From Vulcanimicrobiota bacterium (GTDB lineage: Bacteria; Vulcanimicrobiota; Xenobia; Xenobiales; JADMJV01), in NCBI GenBank assembly GCA_022842865.1, contig JALHOV010000006.1:1-35814 (forward strand): 35,814 nucleotides of DNA, given 5' to 3'. Positions 10,308-33,191 of the stretch are shown here, in pieces. Below the pieces are notes generated by a model. It did no database searches, had not been told where the DNA came from, and saw only the letters and a program-made list of their open reading frames with translations. The position numbers and the translations under genes are program-made. Numbering within the stretch: the stretch's first letter is position 1; each line of letters begins with the position of its first letter.

Positions 10308-10655
10308 ATGGCTATGTTAATTACAACCGCCCAGATAGAAAACGTGTTTATCATTCAGCTTCCTGTCGGCGCCTTGGATGCAGCCACGGCCCGGGAATTT
10401 CGTCAGGAAGCCGACCAATTGTTGGGTGAACACCAAAAAGTGGTGCTCGACTTCACCAAGGTCACTTTTGTGGATAGCGCGGGCCTGGGGGTGGTACTGG
10501 CCTTCCTGCGACGGGTAACCCAAGCCGGGGGAGATTTGAAGGTGTGCGGATTGAACAAAGGCGTCAAAGCACTCTTTCAATTGGTGCGCATGCATCGCAT
10601 TGTAGAGATTTTCGAAACGGTGGAGGAAGCCACCAAAGCCTTTGCGAGCGCCTGA
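10308..10655 (+). CDS. STAS-domain anti-sigma-factor antagonist
   Basis: The protein has 115 residues, the full length of a stand-alone STAS domain of the SpoIIAA/RsbV class. The landmark is VTFVDSAGLGVVL, where Ser57 is the residue normally phosphorylated by a partner kinase. FTKVTF and GGDLKVCGLN also fit. An alternative ATG lies two codons downstream (10314). The next gene's TTG start overlaps its end by 14 bases, so the two are probably translationally coupled. In such systems, unphosphorylated STAS protein binds the anti-sigma factor or another partner. It opens the polysaccharide locus, and the REC-PP2C-HATPase gene that could act on it ends the locus. Confidence 0.9.
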   Translation: MAMLITTAQIENVFIIQLPVGALDAATAREFRQEADQLLGEHQKVVLDFTKVTFVDSAGLGVVLAFLRRVTQAGGDLKVCGLNKGVKALFQLVRMHRIVEIFETVEEATKAFASA

Positions 10656-11778
10656 GCTAAGGCTCTACTGCTTCATCGACGCACTGGGATGGAAGCTGGC
10701 AGAGCAGCACGGTTTTTTGCAGGATCTGCTGGTCACGCGTGCCCCACTGGGCACTCTGCTGGGCTATAGTTCCACCTGTGACCCTTCCATCCTCACCGGC
10801 AAGCTGCCGCGCGAGCACGGCCACTTCAGCTTTTTCTACTACGACCGGCTGGGGTCTCCGCTGCGCTGGTTAAGCCCCCTGCGCTGGCTGCCCAAGCAAC
10901 TCACCTCTCGAGGTCGCGTGCGCCACTGGATTTCCAAACTGGTGGCCAAGGCCTACGGATACACCGGCTACTTTCAGCTTTACAACGTGCCCTTCGAGGC
11001 CATGGCTTACCTGAATTATTCCGAGAAGCGCGACATCTATCAGTCCGGAGGCATTCTGGGAGGGCAGGCCACCTTTCTCGATCGCTGGCGCGCTTCGATT
11101 CCCTATGCTCTCTCCAACTGGCGCCACAGCGAAGAGCGCAACCTGCAAAGCCTGACTCAGGACCTGGGGCGGCCCCAGCGAGCCTATCTATATTTGGCGG
11201 CCATGGACGCCGTGCTCCATCGCGATGGCACCCAGGCTGCCTCGGTGCGACAGAAGTTGCAGTGGTATGAGAAGCAATTGCGCCAGCTGGTTGACCGGGC
11301 TTCGGGCCATTACGATCAGGTCAAACTCTATCTGTTCTCCGACCACGGTATGACCGATGTGGTTCGCTCCCTCGACCTGCGCACTCCGCTGGAGCGCATG
11401 CCGCTGGTCTATGGCCAGGATTACGTGGCCGTCATCGACTCCACCGTGGCGCGCTTCTGGTTTCTCAAGCCAGAGGCCGAGCGGCAAATTCGGGACTGGC
11501 TGTCGGGTGTGGCCGGAGGGCATCTCTTGAGCGAGCAGGAGTTGCATGCTTACGGGTGCGATTTTCCGGGCCATTTTTATGGCCAGCTCTGGTATCTGGC
11601 TGACCCGGGCGTGCTCTTCTGCCCGGGACACCTGGGCGAAAAGCCGCTGGCGGCCATGCATGGCTATGATCCGGAGCACCCGGACAGTCCCGGATTTTTT
11701 GGTGCAAGCCACGAAATGTCGCAGACTCCGGCCGGACTGTGTGACCTCTATGATCTTTTCTGCCAGGACCTGCCCTGA
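10642..11778 (+). CDS. Alkaline-phosphatase-superfamily phosphodiesterase/phosphotransferase
   Basis: The protein has 378 residues from a TTG that overlaps the STAS gene. Metal and nucleophile motifs of the type I phosphodiesterase/AP superfamily are in order: Asp13 in CFIDALGW; a nucleophile segment GYSSTCDPSILTGKLPREHG (Thr45 the likely nucleophile, followed by the usual T-G and H-G); Asp234-His235 in LFSDHGM; and His340 in MHGYDPEHP. There is no signal peptide, so it is probably cytoplasmic. In a polysaccharide locus it might hydrolyse a phosphodiester or transfer a phospho-substituent such as glycerol phosphate. The substrate is not visible in the sequence. The next gene starts at the ATGA that contains its stop. 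Confidence 0.8.
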   Translation: MRAPELRLYCFIDALGWKLAEQHGFLQDLLVTRAPLGTLLGYSSTCDPSILTGKLPREHGHFSFFYYDRLGSPLRWLSPLRWLPKQLTSRGRVRHWISKLVAKAYGYTGYFQLYNVPFEAMAYLNYSEKRDIYQSGGILGGQATFLDRWRASIPYALSNWRHSEERNLQSLTQDLGRPQRAYLYLAAMDAVLHRDGTQAASVRQKLQWYEKQLRQLVDRASGHYDQVKLYLFSDHGMTDVVRSLDLRTPLERMPLVYGQDYVAVIDSTVARFWFLKPEAERQIRDWLSGVAGGHLLSEQELHAYGCDFPGHFYGQLWYLADPGVLFCPGHLGEKPLAAMHGYDPEHPDSPGFFGASHEMSQTPAGLCDLYDLFCQDLP

Positions 11779-12614
11779 TGGAGTCGCTGTGGGTGGTCAT
11801 GCGCTCCCGCAACGATGCCTGGGTGGTCGAATCGACCCTGCAGGCCTTGCGCCAGCAAACCCTCCCTCATCGCCTGCTGGTGATGGACAACGCCTCCACC
11901 GACGGCACCCGAGAAATTGCCCAGCGTTTTGCTGATCAACTGGTAGACGTGGCCGAGGGCCAGTACGTGCCGGGTCGGGTTCTCAATCAGGCCATGAACC
12001 TGGTGGATTCCTCTCAGGTGGTTTTCCTCAACAGCGACTGCACCCCTCAGCATCCGGAATGCCTGGCCGAGCTGGTGCGGCCCTTTGAAAACCCTCAAGT
12101 TGGGGCCGTTTATGGTCGCCAACAAGCCCGCCCCGACTGCTTTCCCATCTTCGTTCGCGACACGTTGCAGATGTATCCGGACGGTGCCGCCCCGGCCTGG
12201 CGGGCGGCCTTCTCCATGGCCAGTTCGGCGGTGCGTCGCGCCACCTGGGAGCAGATCCCCTTTCGCGAAGACCTCAGCTATTCCGAAGACATCGACTGGA
12301 GTCAAAGCCTGCGTGCGGCCGGCCACCAGGTGGCCTACGCCTCTGCCTCGCGCGTAATGCACTCGCACAACTATACCCTGTCCCAGTGGTTCCGTCGCCA
12401 GCGTGGGGAAGGCAAAGCGGACGCCCAGATGTTCTCCTTATCCACGTGGGAGGCCAGCTTTCTTCGCTACACGCTGCTCCCACTGGCCCGCGCCTGTTGG
12501 AAAGATTGGCGCTACTGCGCGGCTCGGGGAGAATGGATCTGGCTGGCCAAAGCTCCCTTTTATCGGGTGGCCGGATCTTGGGGTCGTCGTCGGGGATTTC
12601 TGGAGGCACGATGA
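11778..12614 (+). CDS. Family 2 glycosyltransferase
   Basis: The protein has 278 residues. The GT-A fold signatures of family 2 are present: an opening MRSRND, VMDNASTDGTREIA, NSDCTPQHPE (a D-x-D equivalent with a single Asp), and SEDIDWSQSLRAAGHQVAY for the base-containing ED motif. The sequence resembles rhamnosyltransferase-like family 2 enzymes. No membrane segment is obvious apart from a mildly hydrophobic stretch near residue 235. It would add a sugar to the lipid-linked repeat unit at the cytoplasmic face. The ATG overlaps the previous stop by four bases (ATGA). The donor and linkage cannot be read from the sequence. Confidence 0.88.
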   Translation: MESLWVVMRSRNDAWVVESTLQALRQQTLPHRLLVMDNASTDGTREIAQRFADQLVDVAEGQYVPGRVLNQAMNLVDSSQVVFLNSDCTPQHPECLAELVRPFENPQVGAVYGRQQARPDCFPIFVRDTLQMYPDGAAPAWRAAFSMASSAVRRATWEQIPFREDLSYSEDIDWSQSLRAAGHQVAYASASRVMHSHNYTLSQWFRRQRGEGKADAQMFSLSTWEASFLRYTLLPLARACWKDWRYCAARGEWIWLAKAPFYRVAGSWGRRRGFLEAR

Positions 12615-13627
12615 GGCTTGCGCCTCGCGCCAGCGCGGAGTTTGACGAATGGCTGTTCCAGCATTTACAGGAGCTGGGCAAGCGATGTCAGGATCGCCTG
12701 GGCTCGGCTCTGTGGGCCCTCGTTCTAGGCGGGGGTTACGGTCGCGGCGAAGGTGGAGTTCTCAAGCAAGGGGACCGCGAGCGACCCTATAACGATCTCG
12801 ATCTTTTTTTACTGGTGCATCACCAACCTGAGCCGTCGATTCTGCTCGATCTCAGCAAAACCTATCATGAGATCCTGGGGGTGGACGTCGACTTCAGCCG
12901 TCCCTACACTCGCCGTGAAGTAAGCCACTGGCCCGGCTGCCAGATGTTTTTCGATCTGGTCCAGGGCTACCAGCTACTGGCCGGCGATGCGGCCTGGATC
13001 GAGGCCGTTCCCCAGCACTGCTGGAACCCGCCTCCTCGGCTGGAAGCGAGCCGGCTTTTGCTCAATCGGGGAGCGGGCCTGCTTTGGGCCCTGCGCGTGG
13101 CCGAGGGAATCGAGAAGGCTCCCGATCAGGACTTTGTGCGGCGCAACGCCTACAAACTCAGACAGGCTCTGGGAGACGCCCTTTTGCTCTTGCACGGCGG
13201 CTACCAGAGTCGCTATCAGGGACGTCCGGAAAAGCTGCGACAAGTCCCCGGGGTGGAAGCAAACATCCTCACCAATTATGAACGCAGTCTGGAATTCCGA
13301 CTGGCGCCGGGGCCCGAATTTGGGCCGCAACCGCCGGTCGCGGAACTCCAGGCCGCCGTGCAGGCCTGGCTCAAAATCTTTTTGCACTGCGAGTCCACTC
13401 GGCTGCAGCAGCCCGCCTGGACCGACCCGGCCCGGTATTTGCAAGACCCGCGCCCGCGCGAGCCTTTCGCCTGGAAAGAGGTGGCCCGCAACCTGCGCCG
13501 CGGCCGTCTCAGCCTGCAGTCTCGCCGCCAGGCGCTTTACCTGGATCTGGTGGAACTGCTCAGCCAGGGGCGTTGGGCCGACCCGCAGGCGGCTCAATGG
13601 CTGCAGCGCTGGCGAGAGAACTGCTGA
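12611..13627 (+). CDS. Nucleotidyltransferase-fold protein
   Basis: The protein has 338 residues from ATG 12611, which has a good ribosome site (GGAGG, 4 bases upstream) and overlaps the GT2 stop. The open frame extends upstream to 12386, but only inside the GT2 gene. Residues 37-66 carry the pol-beta-type nucleotidyltransferase signature LVLGGGYGRGEGG followed by YNDLDLFLLV, so Asp62 and Asp64 are the metal ligands. The rest is helical with no family I recognise. Related proteins sit in other surface-polysaccharide loci next to flippases and glycosyltransferases. It could transfer a nucleotide or nucleotide-activated group, but the substrate is unknown. Confidence 0.75.
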   Translation: MRLAPRASAEFDEWLFQHLQELGKRCQDRLGSALWALVLGGGYGRGEGGVLKQGDRERPYNDLDLFLLVHHQPEPSILLDLSKTYHEILGVDVDFSRPYTRREVSHWPGCQMFFDLVQGYQLLAGDAAWIEAVPQHCWNPPPRLEASRLLLNRGAGLLWALRVAEGIEKAPDQDFVRRNAYKLRQALGDALLLLHGGYQSRYQGRPEKLRQVPGVEANILTNYERSLEFRLAPGPEFGPQPPVAELQAAVQAWLKIFLHCESTRLQQPAWTDPARYLQDPRPREPFAWKEVARNLRRGRLSLQSRRQALYLDLVELLSQGRWADPQAAQWLQRWRENC

Positions 13628-15153
13628 TGGCAGCTCGATCCGCGGTGAGCGCCACCCTGATCAGCTACCTGAGCTACGGTGTCGGTATCCTGTCCAGTGC
13701 GCTGCTCATCCCTCTCACCATTCAGGCCCTGGGGGACAGCCAGTTTGCCCTTTGGAGTCTGACTCTCTCGGGTCTGAGCCTGTTGTCCTTGTTGGAAGGG
13801 GGCCTGGCCACGGCCTGGATGCGCTTTGCCTCGGCAGCCCCCGATGGCGAACGCTTGCAGCGCGGGCTCACCACCATGTTGGGCACCTACCTGAGGGTGG
13901 TGGCCGTGGGACTGCTGGTGTTAACCGCAATCAGCTTTTTTTATCCCGCCTGGGCCGGCGCCCCGGCCGAAGTAGCCCGGCCCTTGCTGTGGATCCTGGG
14001 AGCCCGTCTCTTTTACGCCACCTTGCCGCTCACGCTCTTTCGGGTGCTCCTGCACGGCTTGCACCACACCGTGCCGGCCCAAATTTGGGCCACCTTCCAT
14101 CAACTTCTCTACGTCGGCCTGGCGGCCGCCTGGCTGACCCACTCCGGCGGAATCCTGGGGCTGGCCTGGCTCAATCTGGGAGTGGCCCTCTCGGAGAATC
14201 TAGGCTATGTCTGGATGGCCTATCGGCGCGTCCCGGGCCTTCGTCTATTCCCCTGGCAGCGCGACCTGCCCATGGCGCGAGAATTCCATGTCCAGGCGGC
14301 GGCGGGAGCGGTAGTGCAACTGGCCTCGCTGGTGCTGTTAAAAACCGACCCCATTTTGGTCAAAGCCGTGCTGCCCTTGCAGGCGGTCGCCTTGTATGCG
14401 GTGGCCCTGAAGGTGGCCGAGAACTACCTGATGTTCCTCAAGCAGTTTCTGCCCGTGCTCACCCCCCGCCTGGGCGCCGCCGCCGCGCGCCGTGACATGG
14501 ATGCCTTACGCCGCCTGATCATCCAGTCTTCTGGCTGGGCCACCGTCCCGGCCATGGCTCTGGGACTGCCCTTCTGGCTGGGAGCAGAGGGATTGCTGGA
14601 GCACTGGGTGGGTCCCAACTATGTGCCGGCCGCTCCGGCCTTAAAGATTTTGCTCTTGTCGGGACTGCTGTCTCTGCCCCAGATGGTGATTTCTTCGGCC
14701 CTGGCCATGTCAGGACTGCTGGCCGCCAACGCTCGGGCCGCTCTGCTGGCCACGCTGTTGAATCCCATCGCCAGTTTGCTCTGGGCCCGGGCGGTGGGCC
14801 TGCCCGGAATCGCCCTGGGCACCTTGACGGCCACCCTGGTGGTCGATTGCCTGGTGGTCTTTCGCTCGGGCTCGCGAATCTTTGAACTCAGCCTGTGGAG
14901 TTGGGCCAAAGCCTGGCTGCGCCTGCACCTCCCCGGCCTGCTGCTGGCGCTGCCCTTGTTGGCGTTGACTCGCCATTGGGGCGGCCTGCATCTGCTCAAC
15001 TGGTGCCTGTGGGCGGGGCTGGGGGCCTTGCTTTATGGGCTGGCGGTCTTGTTTGGCTTGCCCGCCAAAGAGCGCGCGCTTCTCAAAGACTTGCGCAAGC
15101 GAGGCGCCCCTGATGCCACCTCGTCGGCCAGTGCCGAGGCCACCCCGGCCTGA
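13627..15153 (+). CDS. Wzx-type polysaccharide flippase (MOP superfamily)
   Basis: The protein has 508 residues from an ATG whose first base is the last base of the previous stop (TGATG). It contains about 12-14 hydrophobic segments across its whole length, beginning ATLISYLSYGVGILSSALLI. It has a typical N-terminal PLTIQALGDSQFALWSL and a mid-protein EFHVQAAAGAVVQLASLVLL. These are the features of polysaccharide transporters that flip undecaprenyl-linked repeat units to the periplasm. The last 30 residues are polar (LLKDLRKRGAPDATSSASAE) and their coding sequence overlaps the end of the convergent polymerase gene by 121 bp. It ends the first operon of the locus. Confidence 0.88.
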   Translation: MAARSAVSATLISYLSYGVGILSSALLIPLTIQALGDSQFALWSLTLSGLSLLSLLEGGLATAWMRFASAAPDGERLQRGLTTMLGTYLRVVAVGLLVLTAISFFYPAWAGAPAEVARPLLWILGARLFYATLPLTLFRVLLHGLHHTVPAQIWATFHQLLYVGLAAAWLTHSGGILGLAWLNLGVALSENLGYVWMAYRRVPGLRLFPWQRDLPMAREFHVQAAAGAVVQLASLVLLKTDPILVKAVLPLQAVALYAVALKVAENYLMFLKQFLPVLTPRLGAAAARRDMDALRRLIIQSSGWATVPAMALGLPFWLGAEGLLEHWVGPNYVPAAPALKILLLSGLLSLPQMVISSALAMSGLLAANARAALLATLLNPIASLLWARAVGLPGIALGTLTATLVVDCLVVFRSGSRIFELSLWSWAKAWLRLHLPGLLLALPLLALTRHWGGLHLLNWCLWAGLGALLYGLAVLFGLPAKERALLKDLRKRGAPDATSSASAEATPA

Positions 15154-16397
15154 ATAGTGTAAAGATAAATGACCGGGGTCAGACGGAAGGCCCATTCTAA
15201 AAACCCGATCAAATAAAGAGCCTGAAAGCCAATGGGAAAGCCCAACAGGAGGGTGGCGGGCAATCCCCGTCCCTGGCGGCCCACCCACAGCGGCCGAATC
15301 CAGAAGCCCGCCCACACCAGCACAAAAAAAACCAGGCCCGGATAGCCCATCTCGGCGGCCGTCAGGCGATAGATGTGGTGAGCCACACCGGCCTGTTCCT
15401 CGTTGGCCATCACCTTAATGTGTCCGTTGTAGCGTTCCTCCGTGGTCAGCACGTAGGAAAAGCTGTTCAAGCCCACTCCAAAAAAGTTGTCCTTGGCCAT
15501 CAAGTCGGCGGCAATGTTAAATTCGGTGCGAGCCATTTCACTCTCTTCGGGGGCGGTCTCAAACCGGTTGATAATGGTGCCCAGCGCTTTCAGGCCGCCT
15601 AAAAACGCCAGTGTCATGATAGCCAGGGTGAGCAAGCGCACGCGCCGACTGGGAAAGCGCAGATTGGATAGCCCCACCACCATCAGCAGGCTCAGTCCAC
15701 ACAAAACCAGGCCGGCTCTGGATTGAGTGGCCAGCACGGCGAACATCAATCCCAGCGAGGCGGCAATTCCCCACAAAGACTTCCAGCGGGGCAAGCGAGG
15801 GTTACAACTGGCCCACAGGTAGAGGACCGGCAAAACCAGGATGACGTACATGGGAATGGTGTTGGAATGATCAAACGGCCCCTTGATCCGATACATACCG
15901 AACAGATACTTCTGCTTCAGGGCCAAAAAAGTCATCCAGGTGCCGATGCCCAGATAGGCGTGGGCCATATGTTCCATGGTCAACCCTGCGCGAAAACTGT
16001 TGGCGGCCACCCAATAGACAAAATAGAGCTTGAGCAGTTTGTAGAAGGTAAACCAGGCGTAGATGGGCACCGGCGCCTTCAGGGTGGCGATAAAACAGCA
16101 CAGACCGTATCCCAGCAAAGGCAGCGAATTGTAGGGAAACCATTTGACCCCTCGCTTGCTGGCCACCAGCGGAAAAACCGCCAGAAAGATCAAGTCGGTG
16201 AGGGTCACTTCGAAGCCCCGGTCGGGTCCGCGATAATCCTCCATGGAAATAAAGTGGATGCGGGTAGAATTGGTAACCATCGTCAAGAAGGTGGCCAGAG
16301 CCAGCAGCCAACCGAGGTAGCGTCGGTTGCTCTGGGCCAAAACAAACATGGCCGGGACCGCCACCACCGCAAATAGCGCAAAAATTGCGTATTTCAA
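15033..16397 (-). CDS. Wzy / O-antigen-ligase-like polysaccharide polymerase
   Basis: The protein has 454 residues from TTG 16397, preceded by GGAGG at 6-7 bases; the frame is open further upstream but without a better start. There are about ten membrane segments (first: YAIFALFAVVAVPAMFVLA). A large periplasmic loop carries the O-antigen-ligase/Wzy_C-type pattern: AVLATQSRAGLVLCGLSLLM before it, then NFFGVGLNSF and AGVAHHIYRLTAAEMGYPGL. Members polymerise or ligate lipid-linked glycans outside the inner membrane. It is the only minus-strand gene inside the locus, divergent from the GH9 gene (80-bp spacer) and overlapping the flippase tail-to-tail. Confidence 0.85.
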   Translation of the reverse strand: MKYAIFALFAVVAVPAMFVLAQSNRRYLGWLLALATFLTMVTNSTRIHFISMEDYRGPDRGFEVTLTDLIFLAVFPLVASKRGVKWFPYNSLPLLGYGLCCFIATLKAPVPIYAWFTFYKLLKLYFVYWVAANSFRAGLTMEHMAHAYLGIGTWMTFLALKQKYLFGMYRIKGPFDHSNTIPMYVILVLPVLYLWASCNPRLPRWKSLWGIAASLGLMFAVLATQSRAGLVLCGLSLLMVVGLSNLRFPSRRVRLLTLAIMTLAFLGGLKALGTIINRFETAPEESEMARTEFNIAADLMAKDNFFGVGLNSFSYVLTTEERYNGHIKVMANEEQAGVAHHIYRLTAAEMGYPGLVFFVLVWAGFWIRPLWVGRQGRGLPATLLLGFPIGFQALYLIGFLEWAFRLTPVIYLYTIQAGVASALADEVASGAPRLRKSLRSARSLAGKPNKTASP

Positions 16398-16477
16398 AGT
16401 GCGCCTCCATTCGGTCCGCCTGGATGCGGGCCTCTCTGGCGGGAAGAGTTTGGCGGGTCCAAACGAAGGGGCTCCCC

Positions 16478-18862
16478 GTGACAACCGGCATCGGCAAAAC
16501 AGGACTGCTGTTTTTGGTCGCCCTCTGGACCTCCGCCTGCCAGGCCCAGCCTCAGCCGGAAGCATTTCTCCAGCCTATTTCGGCCACGGTGCTGGAGGTG
16601 GAATTGCGCTCTCCGGCCGATGCACCCGCCCGCACCGAGCCCCTCGAGGTGCTGGTGGACGGGCGGCCCTGGGCGGGGCGCTCAGGAGTGCGGCGCCGGG
16701 TCAGTGAAGTGACCCAGGCTGGCCGAGCCACCCTGACCACCTGGCTCTTTTTTGAAGGCCAGGTTCCGCTCCGGGAGGGTCAGAAGCTGTCGCTCAAGGG
16801 CCCCCAATGGCACTTGCGGGGGCAATTTCACCAGCAGCGACCGGCCCAAGCGCTGCACCTCAACTTGCTGGGTTATGCGGCCACCGCCAGCAAGCGGGCC
16901 TGGGTCGGAGCGGATCTGGGTAGCCTGGGTCAACTCGCCGTGAACCCCCGGTCGAACTGCCAACTCCTCGACCCAAAAGGCCAAACGGTCTGGAAGGGAA
17001 GGCTACAGCCCGGTACAGATCGGGGTTGGCCCTGGCCCTCGCCCTATAGCCAGCTCTACTCGGTAGATTTCAGCGCCTTCCAGACCAGCGGAAGCTACCG
17101 CCTGGAGGTGGAGGGACTGGGTCAGTCGGCGCCCTTTCGCATCGGTCCGGAGCCTGCTCTAGACCTGGTGCGCACTCTGGCCCTGGGTTTGTATCATCAA
17201 CGCTGCGGAGCCCCCAACCAACTTCCCTACACGCGCTTCCTGCACCGGGCCTGTCACACGCGGCCCGCCGCCGTACCCCGGGCCCAGGACACCAACTACC
17301 TGCGCTTGTTGCTGCAAACGACGGGTCTTAAAAGTCTTCAGGAACTCCATTTTCCCTGGTCGGGAGTCGAACCGGTGGACGTTTCCGGGGGCCACCACGA
17401 CGCGGGGGACTACAGCAAGTATGTCATCAACAGCGCCCGCTTGATACACAGTTTGATGCTGGCGGTGGACCATTTCCCGCAGGCCGCCCGCCTCGATCAA
17501 CTGGGGTTACCCGAAAGCGGCGATGGCGTCAGCGACCTGCTCCAGGAAGCCTTGTTGGAAGCAGATTTCCTCAGCCGTATGCAAGACCGGGACGGCGGTT
17601 TTTCGTTTATGGTCTACCCGCAGACGCGTCGCTACGAAGACAACGTGCTGCCCGATCAGGGAGACGCCCAATTTGTCTATCCCAAAAACACGGCGGCCAC
17701 CGCCGCCTGTGTAGCGGCGCTGGCCCAGTGCGCCCAATCCCCGGCCCTGCGCAAACTCGATCCCGCCCGCGCTGCGCGCTACCTCAAACAGGCCCGCCAG
17801 GGCTGGAATTTTCTCGAGCAGGCCCGGCAGACCTATGCAGAGGGCTCAGCTTACCAAAAGATCACCCACTACGGAGACCGCTTTCAGGACCGCGATGAGT
17901 GCGCCTGGGCCGCGGCCGAACTGCTGCTGGCCAGCGGCGAAGCCAGCTATGCAAACTACCTGACCAGGCACTTTCGCCCCCAAGATCCGGCCACGCGTTT
18001 TTGGGGCTGGATGAGGCTTTGCGAGGGGTATGGTTGCGCTTTACGTCAGCTGGCCTTGGCGCAGCCGCTGCCCCAGCTGACGCCGGAATACCAGCGGGCG
18101 GTGCGCAGCGAAGTGCTGGGCTGGGCCGACGACCTGACCGAAGCCTCTCGGGGCTGCGCTTATGGGCTGGCCCTGCCCTTCCCCAGCAAACGGGCAGTGC
18201 GGGCCGGCTGGTTTTTTGCGACCGATCAGGCCTTCGATCTGCTGGTCGCTCAGCACATTCAGTATTCCCCCGAACGGCAACAGGCCTTGCAAAGCCAGCT
18301 GGACTATCTACTGGGGGCTAATCCCAATGACCGCTGTTACCTGACCGGATTTCCGTCGTCTCCCCGTCACATCGTCAGTCAATTCGCCCGCAACGACGAG
18401 CGCCAGTTGCCCCCCGGCGGTTTGCTGATCGGCAACATTCAGGAGGGCCACGCCGAAAGACGTTGGAGCCAACTCAGCCTTCCCCCCGACAACCAGACGG
18501 CCAGCGGCTACCCCCTGCTGCAGCGGTTTTGCGACGGATTTTACCTGCCCGGCGAAGCCACTGTGGACAACCAGGCCCGCGCTCTGGCCCTGGCGGCGGC
18601 CCTGAGCCCGCCCACTCCACCCTGGAAGCCCCAAGAACTGCGATTCAATCGAACCGCAAGCGGCGACTGGAGCGTGGAGGTCAGCGGAGCCAGTCTGATT
18701 TGGGAAGTCCCCGGAGAGGTGGGCCAGGGCCCGCTATTTCATCCTCGTTCCCGAGATTTTCCCTGGTTAGAAGTAGAAGCCCACTGGCCCGACGGCCGAC
18801 GGGCATTCGGGCGCTGGACCTCAAATGAAAATAGCCACCCGGCAGAGAAACCCCGCCCATGA
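16478..18862 (+). CDS. Family 9 glycoside hydrolase (endoglucanase-like), exported
   Basis: The protein has 794 residues from GTG 16478, with GAAGGGG about 5 bases upstream. Translation extended to 16385 would bury the signal peptide. The first ~24 residues form a signal sequence (TGLLFLVALWTSAC) with a possible but non-consensus lipobox at Cys21. Residues ~30-230 look like the Ig-like domain that precedes many GH9 catalytic domains. The catalytic domain shows VSGGHHDAGDYSKY, with Asp308 and Asp311 as the nucleophilic-water/base pair, and FYLPGEATVDNQA, with Glu693 as the acid. The His motif before it (SSPRHIVSQFARND) is degenerate compared with the classical one. It probably cleaves the beta-glucan-like backbone of the exported polymer during synthesis or release. 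It heads the second operon. Confidence 0.88.
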   Translation: MTTGIGKTGLLFLVALWTSACQAQPQPEAFLQPISATVLEVELRSPADAPARTEPLEVLVDGRPWAGRSGVRRRVSEVTQAGRATLTTWLFFEGQVPLREGQKLSLKGPQWHLRGQFHQQRPAQALHLNLLGYAATASKRAWVGADLGSLGQLAVNPRSNCQLLDPKGQTVWKGRLQPGTDRGWPWPSPYSQLYSVDFSAFQTSGSYRLEVEGLGQSAPFRIGPEPALDLVRTLALGLYHQRCGAPNQLPYTRFLHRACHTRPAAVPRAQDTNYLRLLLQTTGLKSLQELHFPWSGVEPVDVSGGHHDAGDYSKYVINSARLIHSLMLAVDHFPQAARLDQLGLPESGDGVSDLLQEALLEADFLSRMQDRDGGFSFMVYPQTRRYEDNVLPDQGDAQFVYPKNTAATAACVAALAQCAQSPALRKLDPARAARYLKQARQGWNFLEQARQTYAEGSAYQKITHYGDRFQDRDECAWAAAELLLASGEASYANYLTRHFRPQDPATRFWGWMRLCEGYGCALRQLALAQPLPQLTPEYQRAVRSEVLGWADDLTEASRGCAYGLALPFPSKRAVRAGWFFATDQAFDLLVAQHIQYSPERQQALQSQLDYLLGANPNDRCYLTGFPSSPRHIVSQFARNDERQLPPGGLLIGNIQEGHAERRWSQLSLPPDNQTASGYPLLQRFCDGFYLPGEATVDNQARALALAAALSPPTPPWKPQELRFNRTASGDWSVEVSGASLIWEVPGEVGQGPLFHPRSRDFPWLEVEAHWPDGRRAFGRWTSNENSHPAEKPRP

Positions 18863-25561: not shown

Positions 25562-26696
25562 GTTTGGCGTCAGCACCTATGGCGCGGACGGAGGCCGTTC
25601 CGGCATCGGCTCCTACTTGAGCGAAATTTTACGCGTATGGGAGCGACAGGGCAAAACCCGCCGGTTGGAGTTGCTGCTCGACCCCGAAGAGGTCGATTAT
25701 TGGAGAGGAGTGGCTCCTTCGGCTCGGCAGCGCGTGCAGCCGCGCGGTTTGCGACGCAACGTGCCGGGAGTTCTCTGGCACCTGCTGATGTTGCCCTGGA
25801 TCGCCTGGAGACAGGGTTATCGTCGCTTGTTTTTGTGCGCCTCCAATCGACGCTCCCCCTGGTGGTGTCCCTGTCCGATGGTGGGCACAGTTCACGATCT
25901 GGCCGGTCTGCGCATGCCCGGTAAATACAGCCGCTGGCATCATCTTTACCTGAGCAAACTGCTTCCTCGCTTGATTCGGCGCCTGCGCGTGGTGCTCACG
26001 GTCAGTCAGGCCAGTGCGCGCGACATTGAGGAACTGGTCGGCATTCCGGCCGAGCGGGTGGTGGTCACCCCGTTGGCGGCCGATCTACAGCGCTTTTCCC
26101 CCGGGCCTCCCGCAGAAGCGCGCCAAAGACTGCAGGCAGATTACTCTTTGCCCGAACACTACGTGCTTTACCTGGCCCGCCTGGAGCATCCCGGCAAAGG
26201 TCATGTGCCTTTAATTGAAGCCTGGGACCGTCTGCTGGACGAGGTCGAAGTGAAAGCAGATCTGGTGTTGGCCGGCAGTCCCTGGGACGGCTATGCCGAG
26301 ATCGAGGCCGCCCTGGCCAAAGCCCGTCATCGCGAACGAATTCGTCTGCTGGGATTTGTCCAGCATGCCCACATTCCCGATCTCTACCGGGCCGCCGACG
26401 CGGTGGTCTTCCCCAGTTTTTACGAGGGTTTTGGCCTGCCCGTGCTGGAGGCCATGGGCTGCGGGCGCGCGCTGGCGTGTTCCAATCGCGCCTCCTTGCC
26501 GGAAGTGGCTGGCTCGGCCGCCCTGCTCTTTGACCCGGCCCAACCGACCGAGATCCGGGAGGCTCTGCAGCAACTTCTGCAAAACCCCGACCTGAAAGCA
26601 CGGTTGGAAGTGGCCGGGCTGCAACGCGCCCAATGTTTCTCCTGGGAAAAAACCGCCGATCAAACATGGACTGCTCTCACGAGCGAAAGGGAGTAA
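25554..26696 (+). CDS. Family 4 glycosyltransferase
   Basis: The protein has 380 residues from a GTG that overlaps the previous gene by 8 bases. It shows GGRSGIGSYLSEIL at the N-terminus, VGTVHDLAGLRMPG, VLTVSQASARDIEEL, YLARLEHPGKGH, and YEGFGLPVLEAMGCGRAL for the donor site. This resembles mannosyl- or rhamnosyl-type GT4 enzymes of the WbdB/MtfB style, but the donor is not certain. It is the last of the five GT4 genes, four bases upstream of the initiating transferase. Confidence 0.9.
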   Translation: MVEFGVSTYGADGGRSGIGSYLSEILRVWERQGKTRRLELLLDPEEVDYWRGVAPSARQRVQPRGLRRNVPGVLWHLLMLPWIAWRQGYRRLFLCASNRRSPWWCPCPMVGTVHDLAGLRMPGKYSRWHHLYLSKLLPRLIRRLRVVLTVSQASARDIEELVGIPAERVVVTPLAADLQRFSPGPPAEARQRLQADYSLPEHYVLYLARLEHPGKGHVPLIEAWDRLLDEVEVKADLVLAGSPWDGYAEIEAALAKARHRERIRLLGFVQHAHIPDLYRAADAVVFPSFYEGFGLPVLEAMGCGRALACSNRASLPEVAGSAALLFDPAQPTEIREALQQLLQNPDLKARLEVAGLQRAQCFSWEKTADQTWTALTSERE

Positions 26697-26699
26697 CCA

Positions 26700-27419
26700 A
26701 TGTCACGCTTAGAAATGGTCGAAGAACTCTATCGGCGCTATGGCGATCCCCAAATGGATCGGCAGCGACGAGTACGCTTTTTGTGGAAACGCTACGCCTG
26801 GGTGACCGTCATCGGCGGCGCTCGCCTGCTCAAACGGGCCGTTGATGTGAGCGCCTCAGGGTTGGGCATTCTGGTATTGAGTCCACTCTTTCTGCTGGTA
26901 GCCCTGGCCATCAAAGCCACCGATCGGGGCCCGGTGCTCTTCTGGCAAAGTCGGGTCGGACAATGGGGGCGTGAATTTCCCTTCCCCAAATTTCGCTCCA
27001 TGGTGGTCAACGCCGAAGCGCTCAAAGACCAACTGCTGCAACAGAACCAGCACGGGGAGAGCGTCACTTTTAAGATGAAAAAGGACCCCCGCATCACCTG
27101 GATCGGTCGTTTGATTCGACGCACCAGCATTGATGAGTTGCCACAACTCTGGTGCATCTTGCGCGGGGATATGTCGCTGGTGGGCCCCCGTCCCCCGGTC
27201 CCGCGCGAAGTCGCCGTCTACACTTTAAAGGACCGCCGACGCCTTGACGTCATTCCCGGGCTCACCTGCATCTGGCAGGTGGAGGGCCGTGGTGACGTTC
27301 CCTTTGACCAACAGGTGGAGATGGACCTGGCCTATATCGAAAGCCAATCGCTCTGGTTTGACATCAAACTGCTCTTGAAGACGGTTCCGGCCGTGCTCAC
27401 CGGTAAGGGAGCTTACTAA
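26700..27419 (+). CDS. Initiating phosphoglycosyl transferase (WbaP/PglC superfamily)
   Basis: The protein has 239 residues with an AAGGGAG site 7 bases upstream. It has the monotopic PGT core: a re-entrant hydrophobic helix (~50-70, SASGLGILVLSPLFLLVALA), DRGPVLFWQSRVG, FPKFRSM, the catalytic Asp145-Glu146 in TSIDELPQL, RGDMSLVGPRPP, IPGLTCIWQV and the closing DIKLLLKTV. These enzymes transfer a sugar-1-phosphate from a nucleotide sugar to undecaprenyl phosphate and start the repeat unit. It lacks the long N-terminal domain of full-size WbaP. The complete motif set is in contrast to the two following genes. Confidence 0.92.
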   Translation: MSRLEMVEELYRRYGDPQMDRQRRVRFLWKRYAWVTVIGGARLLKRAVDVSASGLGILVLSPLFLLVALAIKATDRGPVLFWQSRVGQWGREFPFPKFRSMVVNAEALKDQLLQQNQHGESVTFKMKKDPRITWIGRLIRRTSIDELPQLWCILRGDMSLVGPRPPVPREVAVYTLKDRRRLDVIPGLTCIWQVEGRGDVPFDQQVEMDLAYIESQSLWFDIKLLLKTVPAVLTGKGAY

Positions 27420-27420
27420 C

Positions 27421-28608
27421 TTGGGCCTGCTGGGGACTTCCTGGTGGCAGCGGTTGGGAGCCATTCCCTGCCTGCCCTTGCTGGCCTGGGAAGTGCTGCG
27501 CGGCCGCACCGCCCGCCGCCAACTGGTTTGCTGGGGTCCGTCGCAGTTGCTGCTGTGGATGCCGGACGATCAGGGGCCTTTGGGATTTTTCGCCCTTCTC
27601 AACCTGCTGGCGGGCACCATGGCCTGGGTGGGGCCCTCGCTGAGCTTGCGCGAACAAGCAGCCCAAGCCGATTCTCGCTGGTGCGATTTTTTGCCGGGGG
27701 TCTTCTCCTTGAGCGATCTGCGCCAGCGCACCGGCATCGCCTTTTCCGACCGAGCCGAAATCGAGGATCAATACGCCGCCACCCGGGGCCTCAAAAAAGA
27801 CCTGGCGCTGGTCGTGCGCTCCCTGCTGGTGAGCTGGCTGCCCCCGGCACCTCCGGTTTGTCCTGAGCGTTTGTCTCTCTTTGGCTTCAATCTGGCCAAT
27901 CCCACCATGGCGGAAGCCCTGGATCAGCTGGTGCAGTGGACGCAGGCTCCCCAGCCACGACTGGTGGGTTTCTTAAACGCTCACTGCATCAACGTCTCCT
28001 ATCGCAACTGCGAATACCGGGAGACCTTGCGCAACTGTGATTGGTTGCTGTCCGACGGCTTCGGCCTGCGCCTGGCCGGCTTGCTGCTGCAGCAACCCAT
28101 TCGTGACAACGTCAACGGTACCGATCTGTTTCCCCCTTTGTGCGACCGCCTTCAGGCCAACGCCACTCGGGTCTTTCTTTTTGGGGCCAAACCCGGAGTG
28201 GCCGAGGCGGTGGCCCAATGGATGGCCGTCCACGCACCCGGCCTGGAAGTAGTGGGTGTCCAACACGGCTTCCTGGCGGCCGACCAGCAGGAGCCATTCC
28301 TGCAGCGACTACAGCAGTGCCGACCCCAACTCACCCTGGTGGCGCTGGGGGTTCCTGCCCAGGAGCTGTGGCTGCAACGCAATCGAGAGAAACTTCCGCC
28401 CGGACTGTATCTGGCCGTGGGCGGGTTGTTCGATTTTTACAGCGGCCAGACCCCGCGAGCCCCCCAGTGGCTTCGGGAGATTGGCCTGGAGTGGGCCTAT
28501 CGTCTCTGGCAAGAACCTGGTCGCATGTGGAAGCGCTACCTGGTGGGAAATTTCGTGTTCGCCTTCCACGCCTGGAAAGAGTATAGAAAGCAGGGGATCC
28601 ATCGATGA
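27421..28608 (+). CDS. WecG/TagA/CpsF glycosyltransferase with degenerate PGT module at N-terminus
   Basis: The protein has 395 residues from TTG 27421, two bases after the PGT stop. Residues ~155-395 are a WecG/TagA (GT26) domain: FLNAHCINVSYRN, LLSDGFGLRLAG, NGTDLFPPL, FLFGAKPG and LGVPAQELWLQ. Such enzymes usually add the second sugar to the undecaprenyl-linked one. Residues ~50-140 align with the C-terminal half of the PGT gene upstream: NLLAGTMAWVGPS matches its ILRGDMSLVGPRP, FLPGVFSLSDLRQ matches its IPGLTCIWQV, and AEIEDQYAATRGLKKDLALV matches its closing helix. The Asp-Glu pair is replaced by Leu-Gly. It is a fusion of a dead PGT half and an intact glycosyltransferase. Confidence 0.82.
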   Translation: MGLLGTSWWQRLGAIPCLPLLAWEVLRGRTARRQLVCWGPSQLLLWMPDDQGPLGFFALLNLLAGTMAWVGPSLSLREQAAQADSRWCDFLPGVFSLSDLRQRTGIAFSDRAEIEDQYAATRGLKKDLALVVRSLLVSWLPPAPPVCPERLSLFGFNLANPTMAEALDQLVQWTQAPQPRLVGFLNAHCINVSYRNCEYRETLRNCDWLLSDGFGLRLAGLLLQQPIRDNVNGTDLFPPLCDRLQANATRVFLFGAKPGVAEAVAQWMAVHAPGLEVVGVQHGFLAADQQEPFLQRLQQCRPQLTLVALGVPAQELWLQRNREKLPPGLYLAVGGLFDFYSGQTPRAPQWLREIGLEWAYRLWQEPGRMWKRYLVGNFVFAFHAWKEYRKQGIHR

Positions 28609-30005
28609 ATTTCGAGTCCTATCCAGTCATCATCACGGCCTTGGGTCTGCGCGGCAATGGTCAGGAAGAAGAGCGGGCCTGGGACCTGATGCCGGTGGGC
28701 GATCGGCCCTGGATTCAACATCAGTTGGAGCACCTGATCCGCTGTGGTCAGAAGGATCTCACCTTTATTCTTTACCATGAGCCGGCCGCCATCCAGAAGC
28801 TGCTGGGCGACGGCGAACGTTGGGGAGCGACCATCCGCTACCGCCTGGCTACCGACCCGAAACAACCCCTGGCCTGCCTGCGCGCGGTCGATCTGGAAGG
28901 GCCGGTGGTGGTCGGCTCAAGCCTGGTGCTGGCCCCGCCCGAGCTTTTTCAGGCGGACTCAGCGCCCGCCTTGCTGAGCCTGCAGCAGCGGCCCCTACCC
29001 TGGCTGCGGCTGACTCCGGAACAATTTCGCGAGTCCGTTCGCGAGGACTGGCCTGCTCTTTTGGAGCGCCATCAGCCCGCTCAGTCCAGTTCCTGGGAGG
29101 AATACCAACTTCTCGACGGTCAAGACCTGCTGGCCCGCAATCAGGACTTCCTGACCAAGCACTGGCCGGTGCCACCGTTGGCCCGCGAAATCGAACCGGG
29201 TTGCTGGGTTGGCCGCGACGTGGTGCTGCATCCCAGCGTTCAAGTTACCCCTCCCTGTTACATCGGGTCCCACTGCCGGGTGGGCCGCTTAAGCCAGGTC
29301 GGTCCAGGAGCGGTGATTGGTGCCGGCTCGATTTTGGACGACAAGTGCGTGGTGGTCCATTCGGTGGTCACCCCCGGAACCTATCTGGGAGCCGGTCTAG
29401 AATTGCAGGAAATGACCGCCGGGCCCGGCTTTTTGCGGATGGCCGATGGCGACCCCATCCCCGTCCCTGACCCCAGTCTGCTGGGCTACAGTCGTCCCGC
29501 TTTCCGCTGGCGCCAACGAATCTGGCAGCGCACCCTGGCCTGGTGCTGCCTGCTGCTCTTTGCTCCCCTGCGCTGGCTCCGTTCGAAACCCGTGCAAACC
29601 GAGGCCATGAGTTTCGTGAGCGCCGGCCTGGCCGAGGACCCGGGCAGCTGGAAAGAGCAACACCTGGTCGGAAGCTTAACCCAGGTGACCAGCCTGCGCC
29701 AGCACTTTTGGCAGGTCTTTTTACCGGCGCTGCCCGCTTGCGCTCAGGGAAAGTTGGCGCTGGTGGGCTGCACGCCCCTGAATTCAGATAGCCTCAACTC
29801 CTGTCCAGCCTACCGTCGTCGTCGCTACCTTCGTCGCGGCCCCGGCCTGGTCAGCGAGGCGCTGGTGCAGTTTGGGCCCAGAGCGGACGAAGAAGAACGG
29901 GAACTGGCCGAAGCTCTCCAGGCTGCCCAGGGCGGAGGAGTCTACCCGCTGGCTCTGCTGGGCAAGTATCTGCTGGGGGTTCTAGCGGATGCGCCTCATC
30001 CTTAG
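28605..30005 (+). CDS. Degenerate sugar nucleotidyltransferase - left-handed helix - PGT-like fusion
   Basis: The protein has 466 residues; the ATG overlaps the previous stop (ATGA). Residues 1-190 resemble a GT-A sugar-1-phosphate nucleotidyltransferase (MPVGDRPWIQHQLEHLIRCG) but lack the G-x-G-T-R loop and the usual Lys. Residues ~200-275 are hexapeptide left-handed beta-helix repeats (GRDVVLHPSVQVTPPCYIGS, VGPGAVIGAGSILDD). Residues ~300-465 include a hydrophobic segment (TLAWCCLLLFAPLRWL) and a PGT-like tail: KLALVGCTPL, RRGPGLVSEALVQFG and a closing hydrophobic helix. At the catalytic Asp-Glu position the sequence reads Val-Phe. It is probably not an enzyme of either class and may act as a scaffold, a sensor of nucleotide sugar, or a partner of the active PGT. 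Confidence 0.7.
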   Translation: MNFESYPVIITALGLRGNGQEEERAWDLMPVGDRPWIQHQLEHLIRCGQKDLTFILYHEPAAIQKLLGDGERWGATIRYRLATDPKQPLACLRAVDLEGPVVVGSSLVLAPPELFQADSAPALLSLQQRPLPWLRLTPEQFRESVREDWPALLERHQPAQSSSWEEYQLLDGQDLLARNQDFLTKHWPVPPLAREIEPGCWVGRDVVLHPSVQVTPPCYIGSHCRVGRLSQVGPGAVIGAGSILDDKCVVVHSVVTPGTYLGAGLELQEMTAGPGFLRMADGDPIPVPDPSLLGYSRPAFRWRQRIWQRTLAWCCLLLFAPLRWLRSKPVQTEAMSFVSAGLAEDPGSWKEQHLVGSLTQVTSLRQHFWQVFLPALPACAQGKLALVGCTPLNSDSLNSCPAYRRRRYLRRGPGLVSEALVQFGPRADEEERELAEALQAAQGGGVYPLALLGKYLLGVLADAPHP

Positions 30006-31542
30006 CCTGGCCCTGGTATTTTGCCTGGGCCAACCGTGCTTCCCCCAACCCGTTCCCCATGAACCGAGGCCGGCCGCATCCGCCGGCTCTCGCTGGGAGG
30101 CGGATGAGCACGATAGCTACCTGACCTGGAACAAAGATCTGGAACCGAGCAACGCCTTGCGCCTGCATCTGGACGAATCCCTCGCTTTTGGTCTGCAGCA
30201 CAACCTGACGCTTTGGGTGGCCGAAGTGGAGCCGTCCCTGGCCAAAACCGAAGAGACGCTGGCGGCCGGGCTCTTTGACCCGCTCTTTCGCTCTCTGGTC
30301 TCGCGCGGAGGACTGTCCCAGCTCTTTGCTACCGATATTAACCAAATCCTCGGCTACAACCAGCAACTTTTGACGCGTGCCGGACTGGAACAAACCACCT
30401 CGATGGGCGTTCGCTACAGCGTCGAGTACCGCACCGGCACGGACAGTTTTCTGCAGAGCGCGTTGGGGCTGGGTGGCATCAGCAGACGAACTACCAGCAC
30501 CTTTTTTAATCTGGTGGTGCCGCTTTTGCGTGGCGCCGGTCGGGATGCCAACGAGGGGCCTTTGCGCGCCGCCGAGTTTCGCACCCGCAGAGCCACCTCT
30601 TTGCTTTCGGAGCGAACCCTGGAAACGGCCGCCCTGATCCAGAAGACCTATTGGGAGCTGGTGGCCAAGCGCAAGCAAATGGGCATACAGCTGCGAGCCC
30701 AATCCCACGCGCGGCGCTTGCGGACTTACCTGGAAATTGAGATTGCCGAAGGACGAGCAGCCCCGTATGAAGCCTTCGAAGCCGAACAGAATCTAGGTCT
30801 GATCGAAATCGAACTGGAGGATCGCCGGCGCGGTCTGATTTTGCAGGAGCAATATCTGCTGCGCGTCATGGGCCTGGACCCCAACCTGGGCAGGGTAGTG
30901 CCCCTGGACGACTTGAGCGCCCCCGACGAGCAAAGTTCGGATCTGCAGGCCTGGGTGGAAAAGGCTCTGGCCGGTCGTCCGGAAATCCGAGCGGCCCGCC
31001 TGGAAATCGAGGCCCTGCAAGCGGAAAGTGTCACCTTGACCAATCGCTTGCTGCCTCAGTTAGATCTGATCGGCGATTACCGCACCAGCACCGGCAGCAA
31101 CTTGTTGGGCACCGATGCCTGGCAGGTTTCGCTGCAATTGAGCCTGCCGATTGGCAATCACCAGGCACTGGCCCGGGCTGAGCGCAAGAACCTGGAACTG
31201 AAACAGGCGCAGCGGATCGTCGAGCGCTCCCTGCAAGACATCGTCAACGACACCAGCCTGGCCTACAAATCCCTCGGATTCCACCAAGAGAGATGGCGAA
31301 GAGCGCAAATGACTCGCAGTTACGCGCTGTTGCGCAGTCAGGCCGAAGGGGAACGCTTTTTGGCCGGTTTTACCCCCGCCCACCGGGTGGTCTTTGCTCA
31401 ACAATATGAAGTCCTGTCCCTTCAGAAGGAAGCCGAGGCCAAGCTCGACTACACGCTCTCCCGAGTCGACCTGGAGAGAGCGGTGGGGGCTGCCCTTCCC
31501 GAACTGCTGGAGAAAGCTCGCCGAACGGGAGAAGGCCCTTGA
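29989..31542 (+). CDS. TolC-family outer-membrane channel protein
   Basis: The protein has 517 residues, overlapping the previous gene by 17 bases. A signal peptide (MRLILSLALVFCLGQPCFPQ) is followed by two repeats of long amphipathic helices, typical of the outer-membrane efflux protein family: LHLDESLAFGLQHNLTLWV, LIQKTYWELVAKRKQMGIQL, RPEIRAARLEIEALQAESV and VSLQLSLPIGNHQALARAER. It forms or resembles a trimeric channel across outer membrane and periplasm. No Wza/OPX-type channel gene is visible, so it may be the export route for the polysaccharide. Its place between the assembly genes and the regulator supports co-expression. Confidence 0.88.
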   Translation: MRLILSLALVFCLGQPCFPQPVPHEPRPAASAGSRWEADEHDSYLTWNKDLEPSNALRLHLDESLAFGLQHNLTLWVAEVEPSLAKTEETLAAGLFDPLFRSLVSRGGLSQLFATDINQILGYNQQLLTRAGLEQTTSMGVRYSVEYRTGTDSFLQSALGLGGISRRTTSTFFNLVVPLLRGAGRDANEGPLRAAEFRTRRATSLLSERTLETAALIQKTYWELVAKRKQMGIQLRAQSHARRLRTYLEIEIAEGRAAPYEAFEAEQNLGLIEIELEDRRRGLILQEQYLLRVMGLDPNLGRVVPLDDLSAPDEQSSDLQAWVEKALAGRPEIRAARLEIEALQAESVTLTNRLLPQLDLIGDYRTSTGSNLLGTDAWQVSLQLSLPIGNHQALARAERKNLELKQAQRIVERSLQDIVNDTSLAYKSLGFHQERWRRAQMTRSYALLRSQAEGERFLAGFTPAHRVVFAQQYEVLSLQKEAEAKLDYTLSRVDLERAVGAALPELLEKARRTGEGP

Positions 31543-33191
31543 GCAATAACCTCCGGGTGATGGTGGTCGACGATGATTTGCTGTTACTCAAGATGTTGCG
31601 ACGCCAGGTGGAAAGACTGGGCTTTGTCTGTGAAACCTGCTCCAGCTCGGAAGAGGCGCTGGAAAAACGCCAGGAACGGCCCTATCGCATCTTGCTTTCC
31701 GATTGGGAACTACCGGGCTTGTCCGGTCTGGAACTGTGTCAACGGGTGCGCGCCGAAGAACAATATACCTATGTGCTGCTGCTGACCGGCACGGAAGGAC
31801 CCGAGGCCAAAATCCAGGCCCTGGACGCAGGGGCCGACGCCTTCCTGGCCAAGCCCGCCAGCAGTGCCGATCTGCGCGCTCACCTGCAAATCGCCCAGCG
31901 CATCCTGGATCTGCAGTTTTCGCTCGAGCGCCGCCTGCAGGAGCTGGAGGGAGCCAACCGCTACCTGGTTGAGCAGGTCGAGTTGCGCCAGCAGGCTGAG
32001 GCGAGTCGAGACCAGATTACCCGTTCGGCACGGGAGTTCGAGCTGCGCGTGGCCGCCCACGTGCAACAACGGTTGCTGGTCTCGTCCGCTCCCGCCGATC
32101 CCTTCCTGGACATCGCCACCTACAATCGACCCTCGCGAGACGTGGACGGAGACTTCTTGGATTTCTTTCGCCAACGGAGCGGTCTGGACTGGGTGGTGGG
32201 CGACGTTATGGGCAAAGGCGTGCCGGCGGCTCTGCTGGGCGCCGGACTCAAAACGCAGCTCTTACGATTGCTGGCCGAGCATCGAGCTGGCAGTCTCGAC
32301 TCCGTCATCACCCAGCTCAATCGAAGGACCTGTGAGGACCTGGTCAGCCTGGACAGTTTTGTCACACTTTTTTATGCCCGCTTTGACCTGACCACCAATT
32401 CGCTGGAGTTTGTTGACGCCGGGCACACCAAACCGCTGGTCTATTCGTCGCGGCTGGGCGCCACCTCGGAGCTGGAGGGTCCGAACTGCCCGCTCGGCTT
32501 CACCCCCTTCGAAGTCTATCAGGGAGGCCAGTTGGTGCTGAGCCGAGGCGACCGAATCGTTTTTTATTCCGACGGCCTGACCGAGGCCACCAATGCTTCG
32601 GGAGACCAGTGGGGCCTGGAAGCCTTCAAAGCGTCCTTCGAACGCTCTCCCCACGGCAGCGCCAAGGATTGCCTGGAATACATTCTGGCGGAACATCAAG
32701 CTTTTGTGCACGATCCCAAAGAAAGCGACGACCTGAGCTTAATCGTCGTGCAGGTCTCGGATTTGCCCGAACCAGGGGCGCTCAGGGTGTCCGTTTTACC
32801 GTTTGCCAGCGACCTGGCTCGTCTGGAAGAGATTCGGGCGTTTGTCTCGGAGGAAGTCTCCCAGGGTTCTTCTCGAGAAGCCGAGGAGATGTGGTTGTCT
32901 CAATTGCAGCTGGCGGTCAGTGAGCTGGCCTCGAATATCATTCGCCATGCTTACGCCGGCAAACCAGGTCAATGCCTGTTCTTAATGGTTTCGCTCTTCG
33001 CAGAGGAGGTGGTGATTCGGCTCTACCATTCCGGCCAACCACTTCCTTTGGAAAAGCTGCAGCCGCTCGAACTGAAATCACCGCAGGAAAGTGGAATGGG
33101 GATGTATATCACCCAGCAGGTCACCGACCGTCTGGCGGTGGGCCAGGAACGCTCTTTCCATTGGATTGAATTTGCCAAGAAAATTCCTTAA
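31539..33191 (+). CDS. REC - PP2C (SpoIIE) phosphatase - HATPase regulator
   Basis: The protein has 550 residues from a TTG that overlaps the TolC stop (TTGA), with GGGAGAAGG upstream. The receiver domain (1-125) has Asp11-13, phospho-acceptor Asp55 in LLSDWELPG, Thr83 and Lys105. A coiled linker follows (~130-180). The SpoIIE-type PP2C domain (~185-405) has VDGDFLDFF, VVGDVMGKGVPAALL, FVDAGHTKPL, YSDGLTEATN and SDDLSLIVV, so its metal ligands look intact. The RsbW-like HATPase domain (~415-550) has an N-box (SELASNIIRHAY) and ESGMGMYITQQ. Its G1 box reads YHSGQP, with Ser where Asp is expected. Phosphorylation of the receiver probably switches the dephosphorylation of a STAS protein, most simply the one at 10308. 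Confidence 0.9.
   Translation: MSNNLRVMVVDDDLLLLKMLRRQVERLGFVCETCSSSEEALEKRQERPYRILLSDWELPGLSGLELCQRVRAEEQYTYVLLLTGTEGPEAKIQALDAGADAFLAKPASSADLRAHLQIAQRILDLQFSLERRLQELEGANRYLVEQVELRQQAEASRDQITRSAREFELRVAAHVQQRLLVSSAPADPFLDIATYNRPSRDVDGDFLDFFRQRSGLDWVVGDVMGKGVPAALLGAGLKTQLLRLLAEHRAGSLDSVITQLNRRTCEDLVSLDSFVTLFYARFDLTTNSLEFVDAGHTKPLVYSSRLGATSELEGPNCPLGFTPFEVYQGGQLVLSRGDRIVFYSDGLTEATNASGDQWGLEAFKASFERSPHGSAKDCLEYILAEHQAFVHDPKESDDLSLIVVQVSDLPEPGALRVSVLPFASDLARLEEIRAFVSEEVSQGSSREAEEMWLSQLQLAVSELASNIIRHAYAGKPGQCLFLMVSLFAEEVVIRLYHSGQPLPLEKLQPLELKSPQESGMGMYITQQVTDRLAVGQERSFHWIEFAKKIP

Follow-up and report, generated by a model that had tools for sequence, protein, structure and literature searches.

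We analysed a 35,814-nt window, the whole of contig JALHOV010000006.1 (G000:C6) in the 8.0-Mb draft genome of a Vulcanimicrobiota bacterium (GCA_022842865.1, split into 809 pieces), in which a polysaccharide locus begins with the gene for a lone STAS protein and ends with the gene for a REC-PP2C-HATPase regulator (Pfam and NCBIfam assignments). The two proteins probably constitute a partner switch dedicated to the polysaccharide pathway, one that acts on the membrane complex initiating the repeat unit instead of on a sigma factor. The genes on which this reading turns are listed here, with PGT standing for phosphoglycosyl transferase and LbH for left-handed beta helix.

10308-10655, plus strand: single-domain STAS protein of the SpoIIAA/RsbV type (Pfam STAS 4.6e-21; NCBIfam TIGR00377 71.9 bits, cut-off 53.45)
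26700-27419, plus strand: priming PGT with an intact Asp-Glu dyad (SIDELPQLW; PF02397 3e-64)
27421-28608, plus strand: degenerate PGT-like extension followed by a WecG/TagA glycosyltransferase (PF03808 1.5e-55; extension PF02397 23.9 bits, below cut-off)
28605-30005, plus strand: nucleotidyltransferase-like domain, LbH and degenerate PGT-like C-terminus (PF00132)
31539-33191, plus strand: regulator with, in this order, Response_reg (9.8e-24), SpoIIE-type PP2C (1.3e-39) and HATPase_c_2 (3.8e-14) domains

The STAS protein clears the cut-off of TIGR00377, the anti-sigma factor antagonist family, as expected of a SpoIIAA/RsbV-type protein, and falls short of the SpoIIAA equivalog model (TIGR02886, 72.7 bits, cut-off 114.75). 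As the original prediction had it, the locus opens with a candidate phospho-acceptor, Ser57 (codon 10476-10478, start ATG at 10308), directly after Asp56 in a DSAGLG motif; this residue aligns with Ser58 of SpoIIAA, structures of which were matched at 2.8e-13. Serine follows aspartate in all 12 unseeded STAS proteins in which the motif was read (the two-halves set and genome G126). The nearest relatives, at 42–48% identity, come from Acidobacteriota, Planctomycetota, Armatimonadota, betaproteobacteria and Myxococcota, where their genes neighbour those for PP2C-HATPase proteins or polysaccharide genes; within the bacterium's own order identity is at most 36–38%.

We examined linkage of the two switch genes by searching evenly drawn genomes with the window WecG protein as anchor and reading the surrounding stretches (20 to 40 kb in most cases, less for some at contig ends), the phylum of each relative being taken from that of its search seed. 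Matches fell into two classes, those that begin before residue 100 and so bear the PGT-like extension, and those that begin near residue 150 and lack it. Thirteen extension-bearing loci were unseeded (G126, from the order of Mitsuaria sp. WAJ17; G577; G781; G801; and nine in the phylum of G065); the linkage is likewise seen in the seed genomes (G058, G064 and other betaproteobacteria), which were left out of the count. STAS and a SpoIIE-type phosphatase are both encoded within about 20 kb in 12 of the 13, which span Burkholderiales, Planctomycetota and Acidobacteriota, the exception being G1492. By comparison, none of 30 loci without the extension holds both (4 from Burkholderiales, 2 planctomycete, one of these with STAS only, 4 acidobacterial and 20 from the window's phylum). 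Fisher's test gives p = 8.5e-10, a value that ignores relatedness; G781 and G801 are closely related. The phosphatase gene of G126 is in the neighbouring stretch, about 8 kb past STAS, and G1353 has PP2C and HATPase in separate open frames. In the 8.0 Mb of the host genome there are 12 STAS genes and 5 matches of the PP2C-HATPase type; with so few, and with recurrence in at least three other phyla, the linkage is above chance. Thus the proposal that the two genes belong to one module is borne out, and in relatives they recur at the same kind of locus, not at unrelated loci with other partners.

Gene order differs between loci. In the planctomycete locus L073 the order is PP2C-HATPase, STAS and a phosphodiesterase (PDE) 48% identical to that of the window. 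G1167, from the phylum of a Bryobacterales genome, has PP2C-HATPase, STAS, PDE, GT2, NT, Wzy, Wzx, Wzc, GT4c, GT4d and GT4e, with PGT, WecG and LbH divergent and adjoining the other locus genes; apart from the place of the phosphatase beside STAS, it is almost the locus of the window. The STAS gene adjoins LbH or PGT in G577, G060 and G1329, and the phosphatase gene is mostly next to STAS in relatives. The framing of the biosynthesis genes by the pair, which the original prediction stressed, therefore describes the window correctly and is rejected as a signature of the system.

The same data bear on a reading in which the regulators have no function at the locus and are passengers of polysaccharide islands moving between phyla. 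No close orthologue of STAS or of the regulator, sought with its PP2C-HATPase part, was found in same-genus genomes; with the locus absent from them, it is accessory, which suits passengers, as does the missing pair in G1492. Yet the pair is kept although gene order is reshuffled between phyla, the catalytic and phospho-site residues are conserved, fusions exist (see below), and a phosphatase tree requires at least 4 separate changes of the exopolysaccharide label. We consider passengers highly improbable. Common descent of one regulator was also rejected as the cause of linkage, since the exopolysaccharide-linked phosphatases are not grouped in that tree, which has long branches and is weak.

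Fusions tie STAS to a specific enzyme. In 8 of 345 genomes of the phylum of G069, on the Desulfobacterota side, WecG is fused to STAS domains in a WecG-STAS-STAS arrangement (Pfam recognises one STAS domain in two of the eight and two in the rest), and Asp-Ser is kept in the second STAS domain of all eight and in the first of six. The gene order in G069 is PGT, WecG-STAS-STAS, LbH, and REC-PP2C, STAS and RsbW-like genes stand together further off on the same contig. Within 10 kb of the fusion, G997, G1044 and G948 have a REC-PP2C-HATPase gene, and in the first two a lone STAS gene separates it from the fusion. A different fusion occurs in the acidobacterial genome G1393, where a single open frame encoding GAF-PP2C-HATPase-STAS is followed directly by PGT, WecG and LbH. 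Literature searches of openly readable papers turned up no mention by name of this locus type or of a WecG-STAS protein. In G997 (L219:7692-8890), the PGT gene between STAS and WecG-STAS-STAS is seemingly broken into pieces.

These fusions have to be set against the classical transcriptional arrangement, in which STAS, once dephosphorylated, would release from an anti-sigma kinase a sigma factor whose gene lies elsewhere, and this sigma factor would drive the locus. HsbR/CrsR-type proteins work in this way (PMC6482189), the STAS protein scores above the cut-off of an anti-sigma antagonist family, and the genome has at least 23 Sigma70_r2 genes. A transcriptional switch, however, needs no tie to one enzyme set, and the pair tracks WecG loci of the extended kind only; WecG-STAS-STAS proteins are hard to account for, and no sigma or anti-sigma gene was seen among the window proteins. 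We regard the classical switch as unlikely, if the most serious of the alternatives. Because the tie to one enzyme set is conserved and fusions occur, direct control fits better than a sigma factor, and the earlier suggestion of an output on an assembly enzyme is favoured by the fused sequences.

The regulator has the complete set of PP2C metal-binding aspartates (D205, D222, D345, D397 and D398), so the protein closing the locus has the intact phosphatase motifs ascribed to it. Its HATPase domain keeps N-box Glu462 and Asn466 and G2-box Gly519 and Gly521; His497 replaces the G1-box Asp, so the GHKL kinase motifs are incomplete and an intact kinase is not supported. At this position acidobacterial relatives have His or Tyr in 7 of 8 rows read (Asp in G1353) and betaproteobacterial ones Tyr, Asn, His or Met, and Asp is kept in the planctomycete and desulfobacterial proteins; the replacement looks like a subfamily trait. 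The sensor parts differ between loci (REC, HNOBA, GAF, PAS or Cache), with STAS and PP2C-HATPase constant. A CrsR-like variant, in which the HATPase domain itself would sequester an RpoS-type sigma factor until relieved by STAS, the locus being one target, draws on the domain order shared with CrsR and HsbR and on the retained N-box and G2 box, and the altered G1 box could suit a role in binding only. It is weakened by the swapping of the regulator between loci while the enzyme linkage stays constant, and it meets the difficulties of tracking with extended WecG loci only, of the WecG-STAS-STAS fusions and of having no sigma partner identified; we think it improbable. The closest paralogue of the phosphatase in the same genome (40% identity; G000:C572, L010:445-3146) is a long H-NOX/PAS-like sensor with PP2C-HATPase, and a neighbouring open frame resembles an H-NOX domain.

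The enzyme set that the switch accompanies has a distinctive composition. In monotopic PGTs an Asp-Glu dyad is catalytic. The dyad is intact in every PGT row and altered in every aligned WecG extension and LbH C-terminus, single members keeping one of the two residues (Asp in the WecG of G1393 and in the LbH proteins of G781 and G801). Each extended locus thus encodes one PGT with the dyad and two dyad-less PGT-like domains, carried by WecG and by the LbH protein respectively, a combination seen repeatedly across phyla. Betaproteobacteria mostly combine WecG and LbH in a single polypeptide. The extension scores above the Pfam Bac_transf cut-off in two homologues (76 and 87 bits), and the LbH C-terminus of the homologue in G1220 reaches 39.4 bits with PF02397. 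A structure model of the LbH protein (mean predicted local distance difference test score, pLDDT, 62) gives its N-terminal part an RmlA-like fold, to which part alone the PDB matches apply. The nucleotidyltransferase-like domain here (28605-29000) may be a third inactive domain, as it seems to lack the usual Gly-rich nucleotide motif.

We infer a mechanism of phosphorylation, binding and complex formation, and a direction of switching, for direct control of this set. A histidine kinase encoded elsewhere would phosphorylate the REC domain, and the PP2C domain would then take the phosphate off Ser57 of STAS. By analogy with SypA of Vibrio fischeri, which is active when unphosphorylated (PMC4517449), unphosphorylated STAS would bind a membrane complex of PGT, PGT-like-WecG and LbH-PGT-like proteins and turn it on. 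The HATPase domain, or another RsbW-like kinase, would rephosphorylate Ser57 and release STAS. The two dyad-less domains are probably scaffolds that pair with the active PGT and are open to the action of the switch. The more general proposal, that STAS in its unphosphorylated state, as a separate protein or as part of a WecG fusion, controls the first polysaccharide steps in at least 5 phyla through catalytically dead PGT-like domains paired with a live PGT, we put forward tentatively, at somewhat less than an even chance.

Several observations weigh against direct control as set out here. G1492 has the enzymes with no switch nearby, and G015, of the window's class, has most of the locus with no extension, STAS or PP2C-HATPase. 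No PP2C-HATPase gene was present in five of the eight fusion loci over the stretches of roughly 10 kb inspected to either side. WecG proteins of the fused kind have no PGT-like extension, and extension-type and fusion-type arrangements may for this reason differ in mechanism. The structure model of the window WecG protein is good over the WecG domain and has pLDDT below 50 over most of the extension, so the PGT-like assignment of the extension rests on sequence. Finally, the kinase step of the HATPase domain is doubtful because the G1 Asp is replaced in the window and in most acidobacterial and betaproteobacterial relatives.

Known systems share parts of this arrangement. The window resembles SypA-SypE in having, within a polysaccharide locus, a lone STAS with the conserved Ser of the switch together with a response regulator that combines kinase-like and PP2C domains, and in a proposed output below transcription. 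SypE has the order kinase-REC-PP2C (PMC3610818), unlike the window regulator, and a WecG-STAS fusion or paired PGT-like domains are not described for that system in the parts of the sources available to us. SypA acts below transcription on a target that is unknown (PMC3610818, PMC4517449, PMC8256260). The domain order is not the novelty that the original prediction saw in it: REC-PP2C-HATPase with a partner STAS is the order of HsbR-HsbA in Pseudomonas aeruginosa and CrsR-CrsA in Shewanella (PMC6482189), and only SypE differs. The regulator resembles HsbR and CrsR in domain order and PP2C aspartates and lacks the G1 Asp, and the outputs known for those proteins are FlgM/FliA, HsbD and RpoS, not a polysaccharide enzyme. 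In Myxococcus xanthus, phosphorylated EpsW activates EpsZ, the priming PGT of a Wzx/Wzy pathway, by direct contact, and PGT dimerisation is the controlled step in the authors' model (PMC12802240). EpsW differs in being a phosphorylated single REC domain, and no STAS or PP2C takes part there; by analogy, the dyad-less domains could join a PGT pairing of the EpsZ-dimerisation kind. Anabaena all4160 joins STAS to an envelope-polysaccharide glycosyltransferase (cited in PMC8256260), with STAS N-terminal and so in another order, and no regulator pair is described in the portion of the source consulted. HmpU, HmpV and HmpW of Nostoc punctiforme are a PP2C, a STAS and a kinase tied to hormogonium motility and polysaccharide (PMC8256260); there kinase and phosphatase are separate, and the sections consulted describe no Wzx/Wzy locus for them. 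Partner switches are known mainly as controls of sigma factors, and the target of SypA has long been open. A conserved, sometimes fused, glycosyltransferase set is a concrete candidate target for a STAS protein of a polysaccharide locus, with the dyad-less domains as an additional testable handle. If direct control is true, it would join EpsW-EpsZ as a second path for signals to the initial step of Wzx/Wzy polysaccharide assembly.

The remaining features of the locus are the following.

10226-10265, no strand assigned: perfect 18-bp inverted repeat with 4-base loop CAAA and no T-run, between upstream minus-strand genes and the STAS start
10642-11778, plus strand: PDE, type I phosphodiesterase/nucleotide pyrophosphatase-like (PF01663 1.5e-16)
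11778-12614, plus strand: GT2 glycosyltransferase (profile match)
12608-13627, plus strand: NT, a conserved locus protein of no Pfam family, start inferred (orthologues in G015, G1167, G1492, G781 and G577)
13573-15153, plus strand: Wzx-like flippase (NF041503 2.3e-10, below cut-off)
15033-16565, minus strand: Wzy/O-antigen-ligase-like polymerase, start uncertain (PF04932 2.6e-12)
16385-18862, plus strand: GH9 cellulase-like hydrolase with an Ig-like N-terminal domain, start uncertain (PF00759 1.1e-50)
18859-20061, plus strand: GT4a, GT4 glycosyltransferase (profile match)
20043-22085, plus strand: Wzz/Wzc-like polysaccharide co-polymerase with a C-terminal kinase-like region (PF02706 and TIGR01007, weak)
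22082-23236, plus strand: GT4b, GT4 glycosyltransferase (resembles GT4a and the GT4s of like loci)
23236-24459, plus strand: GT4c, GT4 glycosyltransferase (orthologues of 41–47% identity in like loci)
24440-25561, plus strand: GT4d, GT4 glycosyltransferase (by comparison with like loci)
25554-26696, plus strand: GT4e, GT4 glycosyltransferase (profile match)
29989-31542, plus strand: TolC/OEP-like outer-membrane protein (PF02321 1.3e-22)

Between the switch genes there are therefore PDE, GT2, NT, Wzx, Wzy, GH9, five GT4s, Wzz/Wzc-like, PGT, WecG/TagA, LbH and TolC-like genes. The exopolysaccharide locus of the original prediction holds as one of the Wzx/Wzy-dependent type, with PGT, glycosyltransferases, flippase, polymerase and co-polymerase, the flippase and co-polymerase matches being weak. 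Neighbouring genes overlap or almost touch except around the Wzy-like gene; since that gene is on the minus strand, the locus is no single operon and probably comprises two or more transcription units. No Wza/OPX export protein was found among the window proteins scanned, and the TolC/OEP-like protein is present instead; the planctomycete G781 has a Poly_export/SLBB protein in its place. PDE orthologues of 48–49% identity adjoin STAS in L073 and G1167 and lie in the same locus in G577. The version of the locus in G015 also has the GH9 cellulase-like enzyme (38% identity); there (G015:C15; L177, L201) most of the enzyme set stands beside nonribosomal peptide synthetase genes, with no STAS, extension or LbH. 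No further copies of the 18-bp repeat arms were found in the rest of the window. Upstream of the locus, at 3288-5471, one protein contains what appear by eye to be two tandem formylglycine-generating-enzyme-like segments.

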